From the NCBI RefSeq assembly GCF_000166135.1, contig NC_014666.1, positions 5,270,001 to 5,334,000 of the forward strand: a DNA stretch of 64,000 nucleotides, in the 5' to 3' direction. The translations under genes and the position numbers were made by a program. This DNA is from Pseudofrankia inefficax. Its GTDB lineage: Bacteria; Actinomycetota; Actinomycetes; Frankiales; Frankiaceae. Positions 40,229 through 46,152 of this stretch are shown piece by piece. A model generated the notes under the pieces. That model searched no databases. It was given only the letters and a program-made list of their open reading frames with translations, and had not been told where the DNA came from. How positions within the stretch are numbered: the stretch's first letter is position 1; the number at the start of each line of letters is the position of its first letter.

Positions 40229-40231
<3 letters not shown>
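40157..40231. repeat. 75-bp hairpin element, copy B2 (contains the thiC stop)
   Basis: Left arm TGATCGCCGTTTTCGCCCTC and right arm GAGGGCCGAATCGGCGATCA, extended by CGAACGGTTGCG/CGCAACCGTTCG. It lies between the convergent marR and thiC. The last three bases (40229-40231) are the TGA stop of thiC. Confidence 0.88.
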
Positions 40232-42052
<1,821 letters not shown>

Positions 42053-42141: not shown

Positions 42142-43377
42142 CTACGACAGATCGCCCGCGGTCGCGTCCCAAAGCCGGGTGCTGTGGGAGGCGACGAGGG
42201 CGCCGACGCGGGCCAGGACGTCGCCGGCGGGTTGGGGCCCGAGCCGGTGGCCGTCGCGCAGACGCAGCGAGACGTGCCCGTCGCTTGCCTCCTTCGCGCC
42301 GAGGACGGCCTGGTAGGGCACGAGCCGTGCCAGGCGGACGCGGGCGCCCAGGCTGCCGCGGTCCGGCCCGAGAACCTGCGCTCGCAGGCCGAGGTCGGCG
42401 CACCGCCGGGTGAGCGCCACGGCGGCCGGCAGCTCGGAGGCGGAGATCGGGAGGATCACCAGCTGGATGGGGGCGAGCCAGGCGGGCAGGGCGCCGCCGT
42501 GCTGTTCGAGCAGGTGGGCGACGGCCCGCTCCACGCTGCCGATGATGCTGCGGTGGACCATGACCGGGCGGTGCCGCGCGCCGTCCGGGCCGACGTAGCG
42601 CAGGTCGAACCGTTCGGGCTGGTGGAAGTCGATCTGGACGGTGGACAGGGTCGACTCCCTGCCCGCGCCGTCGGTGACCTGGACGTCGATCTTGGGACCG
42701 TAGAACGCCGCCTCGCCCTCGGCCGCCTCGTAGGGCAGGCCGGACCGGTCCAGGACCTCGGTCAGCAGCGCGACGGAACGCCGCCACAGGTCGGGCGCGG
42801 CGACGTACTTGCCCCCGGGCCCGGGCAGCGAGAGGCGGTAGCGGCTCGGGGTGAGGCCGAGCGCCTCGTAGGCGTGGCGGATCAGGTCGAGGGCCGCCCG
42901 CGCCTCGTCGGCGACCTGTTCCAGGGTGCAGAAGATGTGCGCGTCGTTGAGCTGGATGGCCCGGACGCGGGTGAGGCCGCCGAGGACGCCCGAGAGCTCG
43001 GAGCGGTACATCCCGCCGAGCTCCGCGATACGCAGGGGCAGCTCCCGGTAGCTGTGGGACCGGGAGCGGTAGATCAGCGCGTGGTGCGGGCACAGGCTCG
43101 GCCGCAGGACGACCTGCTCGCCCCCGAGGTCCATCGGGGGGAACATGTCGTCGCTGTAGTGCGACCAGTGCCCCGAGATCTCGTACAGCTCCCGCTTGCC
43201 GAGGACCGGCGAGTAGACGTGCTGGTAGCCGGCCCGCCGCTCGACGGCGCGGATGTACTCCTCCAGGGTGTGCCGCACGGTCGCGCCGTCGGGCAGCCAG
43301 TACGGCAGTCCCGCGCCGATCAGGGGGTCGGTGTCGAACAGGTCGAGCTCGCGGCCGAGCTTGCGATGGTCGTGCAC
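42142..43377 (-). CDS. Threonyl-tRNA synthetase-like enzyme lacking TGS and editing domains
   Basis: A 411-aa class II synthetase made only of the catalytic core and anticodon-binding domain; standard ThrRS is about 640 aa. Motif 1 (K-R-E-L-Y-E-I-S-G-H-W), motif 2 (G-L-T-R-V-R-A-I-Q-L-N-D-A-H-I-F-C) and motif 3 (V-M-V-H-R-S-I-I-G-S-V-E-R) are present. The three zinc ligands are kept: Cys96 in R-P-S-L-C-P, His in D-A-H, His in V-H-R. GTG 43377 (GAGGAG upstream) is chosen because upstream in-frame codons lie inside the attenuator. Probably a second, stress- or resistance-type ThrRS, without tRNA editing; an amino-acid donor for another pathway is also possible. Confidence 0.9.
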   Translation of the reverse strand: MHDHRKLGRELDLFDTDPLIGAGLPYWLPDGATVRHTLEEYIRAVERRAGYQHVYSPVLGKRELYEISGHWSHYSDDMFPPMDLGGEQVVLRPSLCPHHALIYRSRSHSYRELPLRIAELGGMYRSELSGVLGGLTRVRAIQLNDAHIFCTLEQVADEARAALDLIRHAYEALGLTPSRYRLSLPGPGGKYVAAPDLWRRSVALLTEVLDRSGLPYEAAEGEAAFYGPKIDVQVTDGAGRESTLSTVQIDFHQPERFDLRYVGPDGARHRPVMVHRSIIGSVERAVAHLLEQHGGALPAWLAPIQLVILPISASELPAAVALTRRCADLGLRAQVLGPDRGSLGARVRLARLVPYQAVLGAKEASDGHVSLRLRDGHRLGPQPAGDVLARVGALVASHSTRLWDATAGDLS

Positions 43378-43397
43378 GGCGGTCTCCTCGCGAGAAC

Positions 43398-43446
43398 GGG
43401 CGAGTGACCGCAAGACGAAGCCCCGGGGCACTCGCCCCGGGGCTTC
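43398..43446 (-). terminator. Attenuator terminator and competing pairing ahead of ThrRS
   Basis: A perfect 13-bp stem, GAAGCCCCGGGGC/GCCCCGGGGCTTC with a four-base loop, spans 43417-43446 and is followed by GTCTTG. On the minus strand GGGCGAGTG (43429-43437, 5' arm end plus loop) is exactly complementary to CACTCGCCC at 43398-43406 downstream. The terminator and this alternative helix exclude each other. Confidence 0.8.
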
Positions 43447-43461
43447 GGACTGCAGGATCGG

Positions 43462-43497
43462 TCAGCGCGCCGGGACACTCTCCGGCGTCGTCGTCAT
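43462..43497 (-). CDS. Threonine-rich leader peptide (attenuation)
   Basis: A 12-codon frame encoding M-T-T-T-P-E-S-V-P-A-R and TGA, with three consecutive ACG threonine codons right after the ATG. It ends 16 bases before the terminator stem on the minus strand. This is the layout of ribosome-mediated attenuation: ribosome stalling at Thr codons when charged tRNA-Thr is scarce would favour readthrough into the ThrRS gene. The ribosome binding site is weak (GAAGCG). Too short for gene finders; called on context. Confidence 0.7.
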   Translation of the reverse strand: MTTTPESVPAR

Positions 43498-43686
43498 CGC
43501 GGCACGCTTCACGCGCCCAACCGTAACAGAGGCCCGCCCCTGCGCCACAGGCGCCGCGCTCAGCCGGTACCGTCCAGGAGAGATCGTGACGGGGGCGCGC
43601 CCGGCCGACGCCGCTCGACTCGGCGAGTCGCCGCGCCCGGGCACGCGGTCGGTGATGACCGACCTGGACGGGGGCGGCGAATCCAC

Positions 43687-46152
43687 GTGAGCAGCAACTC
43701 CGGCGAAGCCCAACAGGCGCCCGCGCCGACCTCCTGGAACTGGGCGCCACCTCCGCAGGGCCCACCCGTGGCGCCCGCTGGCCCCGTCGCGCCCACTGGC
43801 CCCATGGTGCCCACTGGCGCCGTCGCGCCCGCTGGCCCGGTAGCGCCCGCCGGCCCCGTCGCGCCGATTCCCGCGCCGTACGCGCAGGTGCGGGGGCGGG
43901 TCGTGTTCGACAGCGCGTGGTGCGCCCTGCGGGAGGGGCGGACCAGCGGCTTCTCCATGATGGGAATGCGCCAGCTGCTGCTCACCGACCTGCCGGCGGT
44001 CTACGTGCACGACACCGGGGGCCTGAGCAGCGCGGTCCTCAGCGCGCTGGAGCCTGCCTTCGACCCCGCCGCGACGGTCGAGCTCGTCGAGGGCAGCACC
44101 CGGCTCGCCGTCGACGTCGCGTTCCCGGACGGGCGGACCTACCAGGCGACGACCATCACCCCACTGCCACCGGAGCTGCACACCGCGCTGACCGGGCTCG
44201 CCGGCCGGCTGCTGTCCGACGCGCCGACCGCGGCGTTCGTCAGCCCGTGCGCCATGTCCGTGACGCCGCACTACGAGCGGGACCCGACCGAGGACGTGAC
44301 GGTCAGGAACCCGCCGGCCCCCGTCCCGCCGCCGCCGGCCGCCGGGCCGCTCACCGCGGCCACCGTCAAGGGCGCGGCGGCCCGGGTCGCGGCCGCCGCC
44401 CGCGCCACCGCGACCGGCGGCGGCCAGGCACCGGCGGACGATCCCGACGGGGACCTCACGGCCTACGCCGTGATCAAGGACGGCCGGCTGGAGCTGCGGT
44501 CCCGGGGACGCGCGATCATCGACTGGCCGCTCAACCGGGTCGTCGTCGAGCAGGCCTCCGCCACCAGCGCGCACGTGCGCGGCGGCGCGGTGCTCGACGG
44601 ACGGTTCCTCACCGGCGTGACGCTGCACCTCGCCGCCCCACCGGTGCTCGCTGCGTTCCTCGCCGTCGCGCAGGCCGAACGGCGCGAGGCCGAGACGACG
44701 ACCATGGGCACGTCCGCCCCGGTCTGGGCGAGCGGCCTGAGCGGCGACGCGGCCCGCGGCCGGGCGGACTGCGTGCTCGGCGACACCGTGCTGGAGCTAC
44801 AGCCGCGGGACGGCGCCACGACGCTGACCCGGTTCGACCTGACCGACTCCCGGCTGCGGATGGCCGGCTCGGCGCAGCGGTTCGTCATCTTCGACCCGGA
44901 GCACGGCCCGGTGGTCGTCGAGAGCGACTCGGAGGCGTTCGGCGCGCGGGTCGCGGCCCATCCCGGCGTCCGGGCGGCCGCCGAGCGGACGCTGGCGGGC
45001 GGGCCCTACCCGGCCGAGCTGGCCGACGGGGGCCCGGTGGCCTGCGCGGTCGCGGCCGGCACGCTGCGGGTGAAGGGCCCCGGCGCGGACCTGCGGGTGC
45101 CGCTCGCGCGGATTCGGTCCGTCGAGGGCGTCGCGGGCGAGGCGCGGGCCAGCCTGCGGGTCGCGGGCCCGGACGGGGACGTGACGATCGTCGGCCAGCT
45201 GGAGCTGGTCCGAGCCCTGCACACGGACGTCGCGGCCGGCAACTACGCCACCGAGGACCCGCGCCACCTGGCCGACATGCTGCGGGCCGCCGCGGGCCTG
45301 GAGGACGACTACTTCCTCTACACGATCTTCGGCCCGTTCTACGAGCTGCACGCCGCCCTGCTCGGCGACGCGGCCGCGGGCGGCCTGGCCGCGCGGGTCG
45401 AGCTGCCGGCCGACGACGAGGGCCGGCTGCGCACCGCCGCGGCCCTGTCGGAGGGCCTCGACGAGCTGCGCCGCCACCTCGACCAGGTCGGCTCGGTGCT
45501 GCCCGCCTTCATCCGCCATCGCGACGGGCTGCTGCTCGCGCCGGTCACCGAAGGGCGGCCGGAGCCGGAGTGGCTGAAGGCGCAGGAGGCCCGGCTGCGG
45601 GCCGCGTTCGCCCCGGCCCAGCGCGCGGCGGCCGAGACCGGCGCGCTGTCGGCCCAGGTGCAGCGCCTGATGGACCTGGACCCGTCCGCGTTGCCGAAGG
45701 CCAACTACGCGGGCGCCGCCGTCGCGCTCGGCGCCGCACTGCTGAACCCCGTGTTCCTGGTCTCCGGCGCGACCCAGGCGTTCAACCAGTACAACCAGCG
45801 CGCCCAGCGGTCGGCGCTCATGAGCACGCAGGCCGCGAGCGGCTGGGCAAGCGCCCTCGACCGGTGGAACACGCTGGTCGGCTCCACGCTCCCGGTGCTC
45901 GGCTACGTGCTGACCGAGAACCTGTTCGCGCCGCGCTGGGAGACCGCCCGCCGGCTCGCCGAGGAGCTGCGCCGCGCCGCGCCGACGGCCCGCGGGCCCT
46001 CGATGGGTGGCGTCGCCCGCAGGCTCGCCCAGCTCGACGTGATGCGCCGCTACCCGGCGACCTCGGGTATCCGGCTCACCCGCGGCGAGATCACGCACCA
46101 CCTGCGGGTCGCGCGTGACTCGGTCAGCACACCCCGGTTCGTCGACTTCTGA
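43687..46152 (+). CDS. Large multidomain protein of unknown function
   Basis: An 821-aa protein I do not recognise. Residues about 10-65 are a Pro/Ala/Gly low-complexity tail with repeated G-P-V-A-P units. Then come three or four beta-rich segments that look like repeated PH/GRAM-like modules (for example G-R-A-I-I-D-W-P-L-N-R-V-V-V and L-R-V-P-L-A-R-I-R-S-V-E-G). A helical domain follows, then a hydrophobic stretch (A-V-A-L-G-A-A-L-L-N-P-V-F-L) at about 680. No signal peptide is seen. GTG 43687 has GGGGGCGG about 12 bases upstream. It is followed after 30 bases by a His-rich membrane protein, so the two probably act together. Confidence 0.75.
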   Translation: MSSNSGEAQQAPAPTSWNWAPPPQGPPVAPAGPVAPTGPMVPTGAVAPAGPVAPAGPVAPIPAPYAQVRGRVVFDSAWCALREGRTSGFSMMGMRQLLLTDLPAVYVHDTGGLSSAVLSALEPAFDPAATVELVEGSTRLAVDVAFPDGRTYQATTITPLPPELHTALTGLAGRLLSDAPTAAFVSPCAMSVTPHYERDPTEDVTVRNPPAPVPPPPAAGPLTAATVKGAAARVAAAARATATGGGQAPADDPDGDLTAYAVIKDGRLELRSRGRAIIDWPLNRVVVEQASATSAHVRGGAVLDGRFLTGVTLHLAAPPVLAAFLAVAQAERREAETTTMGTSAPVWASGLSGDAARGRADCVLGDTVLELQPRDGATTLTRFDLTDSRLRMAGSAQRFVIFDPEHGPVVVESDSEAFGARVAAHPGVRAAAERTLAGGPYPAELADGGPVACAVAAGTLRVKGPGADLRVPLARIRSVEGVAGEARASLRVAGPDGDVTIVGQLELVRALHTDVAAGNYATEDPRHLADMLRAAAGLEDDYFLYTIFGPFYELHAALLGDAAAGGLAARVELPADDEGRLRTAAALSEGLDELRRHLDQVGSVLPAFIRHRDGLLLAPVTEGRPEPEWLKAQEARLRAAFAPAQRAAAETGALSAQVQRLMDLDPSALPKANYAGAAVALGAALLNPVFLVSGATQAFNQYNQRAQRSALMSTQAASGWASALDRWNTLVGSTLPVLGYVLTENLFAPRWETARRLAEELRRAAPTARGPSMGGVARRLAQLDVMRRYPATSGIRLTRGEITHHLRVARDSVSTPRFVDF

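Follow-up and report, generated by a model that had tools for sequence, protein, structure and literature searches.

The minus strand of the window, the whole 64,000-nucleotide stretch of Pseudofrankia inefficax DNA analysed here, carries a Thr-codon leader ahead of a short ThrRS gene, and we regard it as likely that this leader works by ribosome-mediated attenuation, sensing how well ACG-reading Thr tRNAs are charged and so controlling a spare ThrRS devoid of an editing domain. A preliminary description had already read the region as ribosome-mediated attenuation; its core, a Thr leader with mutually exclusive structures ahead of a ThrRS gene, stands, while several of its details do not. Along the strand (43375-43528) an extended -10 is followed after 7 nt by the leader ORF, a spacer, a 14-bp hairpin, GGTCACTCGCCC, the Shine-Dalgarno (SD) sequence GAGGAG and the GTG start at 43377 (Table 1).

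Table 1. Features of the leader and the short ThrRS gene in the window.
Feature	Position	Strand	Remarks
Short ThrRS gene (thrS2-like)	42142..43377	-	411 aa from a GTG start; has just the catalytic and anticodon-binding domains
B:C hairpin	43381..43409	-	masks Shine-Dalgarno GAGGAG (43384-43389)
Segment B, CACUCGCCC	43398..43406	-	partner of A or of the SD region
3:4 hairpin, GAAGCCCCGGGGC-GAGT-GCCCCGGGGCTTC	43416..43447	-	14 perfect pairs, RNA loop GAGU; terminator-like, without U-tract
Segment A, GGGCGAGUG	43429..43437	-	end of 5' arm, loop and first base of 3' arm of 3:4
Leader peptide ORF, VKRAAMTTTPESVPAR*	43462..43512	-	16 codons plus stop, GTG start
Segment 2, GUCCCGGCG	43468..43476	-	partner of segment 1 or 3
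Segment 1, CGCCGG	43482..43487	-	1:2 helix of 6 bp; proposed to lie under the ribosome stalled at the Thr codons
Regulatory codons ACG ACG ACG	43486..43494	-	Thr run of 3 in 138/138 tabulated leaders
Extended -10, TGT-TACGGT	43520..43528	-	ends 7 nt before leader start

The synthetase, queried from codon 2, scores 434.4 bits against TIGR00418 (cut-off 383.65) over profile positions 171-551 of 565, and contains the Pfam domains PF00587 and PF03129. A genome search showed that the 8.8-Mb genome has a second, full-length ThrRS at another place. The earlier label of a truncated ThrRS is therefore misplaced: judged by its sequence, the gene is a conserved short paralog, a second ThrRS without editing domain. 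All 139 short ThrRS retain the residues that align with the three zinc ligands and the motif-2 arginine of known ThrRS. At the column of human L567 and E. coli L489, which we placed by means of the E. coli sequence, the short enzymes (n=139) have Gln in 136 cases, Lys in 2 and Leu in 1, and the full-length enzymes (n=16) have Leu in 10, Met in 3, and Glu, Phe and Gln in one each. The human alignment as printed shows Gln-Leu at this column, in agreement with Q566 and L567 of PMC4389257. Human L567 is a borrelidin contact corresponding to E. coli L489, and mutations at E. coli H309 and L489 are reported to give a higher borrelidin Ki (PMC4389257). The best reading of the gene would be that of a spare ThrRS for periods when the main ThrRS is blocked. 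The short enzyme is also poor in Thr (2.59% versus 4.17%), with Phe, Lys and Asn among the residues that differ by larger factors. On the same strand, downstream of the short ThrRS gene, lies thiC (phosphomethylpyrimidine synthase by Pfam/NCBIfam, 40229-41944), and the divergent neighbour ORF (43687-46152) encodes 821 aa with a proline-rich N-terminus and finds no match in Pfam or NCBIfam at E 0.001.

The leader reads GTG AAG CGT GCC GCG ATG ACG ACG ACG CCG GAG AGT GTC CCG GCG CGC TGA, with an internal ATG at 43497 and the stop at 43464-43462 of the minus strand. The three consecutive ACG Thr codons reported previously are indeed found on this strand after that ATG. A leader of 11 residues, as was then proposed, we reject, since only 62 of 91 leaders have ATG, GTG or TTG directly before the Thr run; translation very probably begins at GTG 43512, to give a leaderless ORF of 16 residues. 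Among the 138 leaders that were tabulated, which were sought with the frame imposed and the -10 required to lie 6-8 nt away, the start codon is ATG in 131 and GTG in 7, and it follows the end of TANNNT by 7 nt in 118 and by 6 nt in 20. When the loci are scored without regard to frame, TGNTANNNT-N7-RTG occurs within 75 nt in 97 of 134 distinct loci, this strict form being absent from 37, and from that start the reading frame takes in the ACG run in 97 of 97: the distance from start to second ACG is 18, 21, 24, 27, 33 or 57 nt, always whole codons. Beyond the Thr codons the picture is different. A one-base change shifts the frame after them in L057, L140 and L149, and the distal peptide is also altered in L160 and L161, while the RNA CCCGGCGCGC is kept or nearly kept in all five, so that conservation of the distal PESVPAR as a peptide is rejected. 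A constant proximal frame, and a distal peptide that varies over kept RNA, indicate that what is preserved is the reading frame in the proximal part and the RNA in the distal part.

Orthologs were taken from genome contigs (the best 80 of 513 relatives), from relatives, from a class-wide sample of 393 genomes out of a larger class, and from further loci. Short ThrRS genes, counted at E<=1e-140, occur in 61 of the 393 class genomes. The leader is present in 139 of 143 short-ThrRS loci, which include near-duplicates and represent 139 distinct genes, the fragmentary matches of G024 being excluded; the tables of 138 leaders omit L026, whose leader of 28 aa exceeds the span of the later search. The four loci in which no leader was found are L053, L094 and L097, with 51-103 nt of upstream DNA in the sample, and L082, which retains the hairpin and the downstream segment upstream of its gene. 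The core pattern ACGACGCCGG-N3-7-CCCGGCGCGCTGA has one match each in 57 of the 393 class genomes and none in backwards control rows, and in 55 of the 57 it immediately precedes a short ThrRS gene. The remaining two are G237, where it sits at a contig edge, and G389, where an intact leader (L243, G389:C110:101800-104300) precedes a ThrRS gene that breaks off after its start and seems to have decayed. Six genomes (G007, G088, G203, G294, G334 and G388) have a short ThrRS without the exact core pattern.

Leader and gene use different Thr codons. ACG makes up 409 of the 414 Thr codons in the 138 tabulated leaders, the five others (ACC 3, ACT 2) all being at the first position of the run; the 139 distinct short ThrRS genes have ACC 1392, ACT 46, ACG 7 and ACA 2 (ACG 7/1447), counted over the aligned stretch, which passes a stop in five loci and may include a few extra codons. 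The gene in the window has 13 ACC and 0 ACG. Over the same region, full-length ThrRS genes (n=16) use ACG for 58 of 265 Thr codons and only one of the 16 is ACG-free (Fisher p 9e-42 versus the short genes). In the ORFs of 5 genomes, chosen by script from length (>=250 codons) and G+C by codon position and not from annotation, ACG accounts for 27-34% of Thr codons, and none of the 275 ORFs with at least 14 Thr codons is free of it. Shared ancestry as the sole cause of this avoidance is rejected, because at the 72 columns with sporadic Thr (<=10/139 sequences) ACG is used in 5 of 163 cases, versus GCG in 111 of 300 at comparable Ala columns. High expression is rejected as well: the short gene resembles full-length ThrRS in its Val, Ala, Pro, Arg and Leu codon usage and is richer in AAA, GAA and GGA. 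No other amino-acid family of the short gene has a skew like that of Thr. The genome itself has Thr tRNAs with the anticodons CGU, UGU and GGU (from the loci of 30 of 46 tRNA matches); by standard wobble, CGU and perhaps UGU decode ACG, and GGU decodes ACC/ACU.

The split is nearly absolute and recurs at sporadically gained Thr sites, and we lean towards an isoacceptor-insulated attenuator, in which selection would have divided the synonymous Thr codons, with ACG almost only in the leader and ACC/ACU almost only in the gene, so that the sensor reads the CGU/UGU tRNAs and the enzyme is made without them. Selective-charging theory, as excerpted (PMC1183508), holds that leaders favour starvation-sensitive codons while other isoacceptors stay charged, under which a leader/gene split of this kind would be favoured. 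Because the split lies within one short locus of culturable soil bacteria, it is testable by synonymous swaps alone.

A possible parallel was sought in leuS. Leaders of the form MRAVRLLLS[EG]PR (L228-L242) contain the run CTT-CTG-CTT in 15 of 15 genomes of one genus, and the leuS genes of the same 15 genomes, counted from the match start, use CTC/CTT for 18 of 925 Leu codons and ACG for 19.3% of Thr codons. Nineteen further leuS loci gave an inconsistent association between leader and codons: a leader candidate goes with 0-1.5% CTC+CTT in four (L248, L253, L256, L261) and with 32-39% in four others (L252, L254, L259, L262), and loci in which no candidate was found have 0-1.9% in four (L251, L258, L260, L263) and 14-66% in seven. 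Thus leuS is not upheld as a clean second case; the codon split may still be a wider design rule, as the leuS split in one genus hints, even if it is inconsistent elsewhere.

The RNA between leader and gene has several mutually exclusive ways to fold. The whole leader folds at -75.6 kcal/mol, more stably than chance (z -4.53, with 0 of 200 shuffles as good). That description had a perfect 13-bp terminator stem; the hairpin is perfect, with 14 bp (43416-43447), yet the terminator label is doubtful, as no U-tract follows it (mean of 2.1 T in the 8 nt past the stem across 115 aligned leaders). A simple terminator scan found none. The nine-base complementarity was also seen correctly, GGGCGAGTG (43437-43429) being exactly complementary to CACTCGCCC (43406-43398) downstream on the minus strand. 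Rfam has no match anywhere in the window at gathering score, T-box and other known leaders included, and its 7 matches here below threshold are to sRNA and microRNA families, none of them an amino-acid leader or T-box.

Covariation was scored in an alignment of 115 of the 138 leaders (those with the stop <=106 nt from the gene; 111 distinct rows). In the 3:4 hairpin 94.1% of cells are paired, with double changes at 8 pairs (2.3 in shuffles) and in 24 cells (2.7 in shuffles); slid by +1 it still yields 22 double-change cells, but with 56% paired. A:B is 95.7% paired and has 36 double-change cells, versus 7.4 in shuffles, none of 500 being as high, although its 5 pairs with double changes (2.9 in shuffles) are reached by 12 of 500; sliding by 1 to 3 columns lowers its pairing to 38-51%. 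CAAGTG/CACTTG, CGAACG/CGTTCG and CGAGCG/CGCTCG are compensated examples, and CGAGAG/CACTCG pairs incompletely. B:C is weaker than A:B, with 88.5% paired, 6 double-change pairs and 16 double-change cells (6.7 in shuffles), and its slides of -3 and +3 are 85-88% paired on fewer cells, that of +1 having 18 double-change cells at 47%. The 2:3 helix is 98.7% paired with no double changes and the 1:2 helix 99.8% paired with no pair varying by a standard change, hence no covariation; such invariance shows constraint and is not proof of pairing. The preliminary description had looked to orthologs for both the Thr codons and the competing helix, and both are there, the former in 138 of 138 leaders and the latter as a conserved, covarying A:B.

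The calculated helix energies are -32.7 kcal/mol for 3:4, -18.8 for A:B, -18.2 for 2:3, -13.0 for B:C and -10.8 for 1:2. When a stall is simulated on RNA that stops past segment 3, blocking segment 1 lets 2:3 form (-15.1 to -19.2 kcal/mol), and with the ribosome at the stop codon 2:3 is impossible in the same nascent RNA. As soon as segment 4 has about ten bases, 3:4 prevails in all cases folded, and for a stall at the third ACG six are enough; the complete RNA has 3:4 and B:C in every minimum-energy fold, whichever part is blocked. Since 3:4 wins so early and full-length folds keep 3:4 and B:C, the ON state must be kinetic, and since B also pairs with the SD region, the switch may act on translation besides, or instead of, termination.

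The mechanism that we infer from this, in its ribosome stalling, its folding order, its direction of control and its division between termination and SD masking, would run as follows. A ribosome would load right at, or close beside, the transcript's 5' end and translate MKRAA..TTT. If Thr-tRNA for ACG were plentiful, it would reach the UGA and cover segment 2, whereupon 3:4 would form and leave segment B free to mask the SD of the synthetase, keeping expression low. A stall on ACG would instead cover segment 1, so that 2:3 could pair before segment 4 is made, 3:4 would be delayed and RNA polymerase would pass; A would then pair with B and expose the SD. The coding sequence, being nearly free of ACG, could rely on the ACC/ACU-reading tRNA for its translation even when the sensed tRNAs carry no Thr. 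We propose a kinetic switch of two layers, in which SD control would rank at least as high as termination.

This two-layer reading draws on three Thr codons in 138/138 leaders, the frame kept in 97/97, the covariation of 3:4 and A:B, the stall simulation and the codon partitioning, and also on RNA-seq in S. lividans, which according to the excerpted report detected a leaderless thrL with a matching layout (PMC8079986). Several observations weigh against it: the hairpin has no U-tract and the same excerpt calls thrL termination not clear, A overlaps segment 3 and hence 2:3 and A:B compete, 1:2 and 2:3 do not covary, the number of double-change A:B pairs is sometimes matched by shuffles (12/500), L082 has the hairpin without the leader, 3:4 prevails early and stays with B:C in every full-length fold, and the leader published for S. 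lividans contains two Thr where the window leader has three. Some of these would suit a purely translational attenuator, with a non-terminating hairpin and a stall that selects A:B (SD open) over 3:4 plus B:C (SD masked). It is a version of the reading we prefer, its probability overlaps with that of the latter, and we take it as a tenable but not the favoured form. The predicted masking of the SD by B:C and the competing A:B, both covarying beyond shuffles and the latter doing so though it extends downstream of the hairpin, argue for it, as do the lack of a U-tract and the unclear termination excerpted for thrL (PMC8079986). On the other hand, 2:3 uses nucleotides of A, which means that stalling alone does not obviously free A, and the G+C-rich hairpin is strongly conserved. 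The antiterminator role formerly implied for the competing strand fares poorly as well: that strand comes after the hairpin and shares bases with the SD-masking helix, a position that SD control would fit better.

We rather doubt that the leader senses a subset of tRNA isoacceptors, through their amount, damage or modification, and not the general supply of threonine. ACG is near-exclusive in the leader and near-absent in the gene, and for general Thr starvation ACC would do equally unless isoacceptors differ, but selective-charging theory, as excerpted, predicts such a codon choice under ordinary starvation, with no special insult needed (PMC1183508). Transcriptional attenuation alone, in the style of the E. 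coli thr and trp leaders, would have the classical 1:2, 2:3 and 3:4 segments that are present here and would make A:B and B:C incidental; it seems unlikely given that A:B, which reaches beyond the hairpin, has 36 double-change cells versus 7.4 in shuffles, and that no U-tract follows the stem. As for a chance ORF beside an ordinary terminator, starts of the type MTTT are common in G+C-rich genomes, but a leader kept in 139 of 143 loci, in one copy per genome and with the same neighbouring gene in 55 of 57 genomes, leaves this explanation practically no credence, and we regard it as refuted by conservation.

Leaders with Thr codons have a well-known example in the E. coli thr operon attenuator, which has competing hairpins and controls biosynthesis, and attenuation of TrpRS1 in S. 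coelicolor has reportedly been described by Vecchione and Sello in 2010. The E. coli thr leader has eight ACC codons (quoted in the excerpt of PMC1183508), as opposed to the ACG of the window leader, and no homology is claimed. Closer at hand is thrL (SLIV_19412), MKRVRPFLETTPGFVPAR, upstream of thrS (SLIV_19410) in S. lividans TK24, which the excerpted text describes as leaderless, with one hairpin and no U-rich stretch (PMC8079986). By that description it is likened to the window leader, whose layout it shares, with two Thr instead of three, and the account, as far as the excerpt goes, is without conservation in other species, A:B/SD helices or codon partitioning. The excerpted part of PMC1262725 predicts trpS and leuS attenuators in Streptomyces and states that the upstream regions of threonine operons showed no conserved RNA structures; the trpS and leuS attenuators likewise have a short leader with cognate codons ahead of a synthetase gene, unlike which the window locus has an SD-masking branch and ACG partitioning. 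The statement that such control is unusual in an actinobacterium was thus overstated, in view of thrL (PMC8079986) and of trpS and leuS (PMC1262725), both as excerpted, and a Thr attenuator ahead of ThrRS is as such already known. Our searches of open-licence PMC papers returned no title dealing with codon partitioning in a ThrRS gene or an SD switch ahead of ThrRS, and as far as these searches go the present analysis adds the covarying A:B/SD branch, the codon partitioning and the depth of the conservation. The locus unites a Thr leader, in many orthologs a WblC-type promoter, and a spare ThrRS in which a borrelidin-contact residue is altered, elements which the cited work, in its excerpted parts, treats separately.

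The distance between the -10 and the start codon suggests that the leader transcript is itself leaderless, and WblC-type promoters start mostly 7-8 bp past the -10 (excerpt of PMC7157823), which is consistent with such a start. The same excerpt names thrS2 among the synthetase genes of S. coelicolor that are activated by WblC (PMC7157823), and this thrS2 is presumably a short ThrRS. We defined a WblC/WhiB7 promoter by GAAAWY 3 bp upstream of the -35, a spacer of 16-19 and TANNNT. The window's own promoter has no WblC box at the predicted offset (5 mismatches to GAAAWY), and the feature shared with S. coelicolor thrS2 is therefore the box in many orthologs: at the predicted offset, 31-34 nt before the -10, GAAAWY is exact in 41 of 138 ortholog promoters and within one mismatch in 90, compared with 0 of 138 exact and 0-6 within one mismatch at each of 18 control offsets. 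Another group of orthologs has a GGAATG-like variant at the place of the box.
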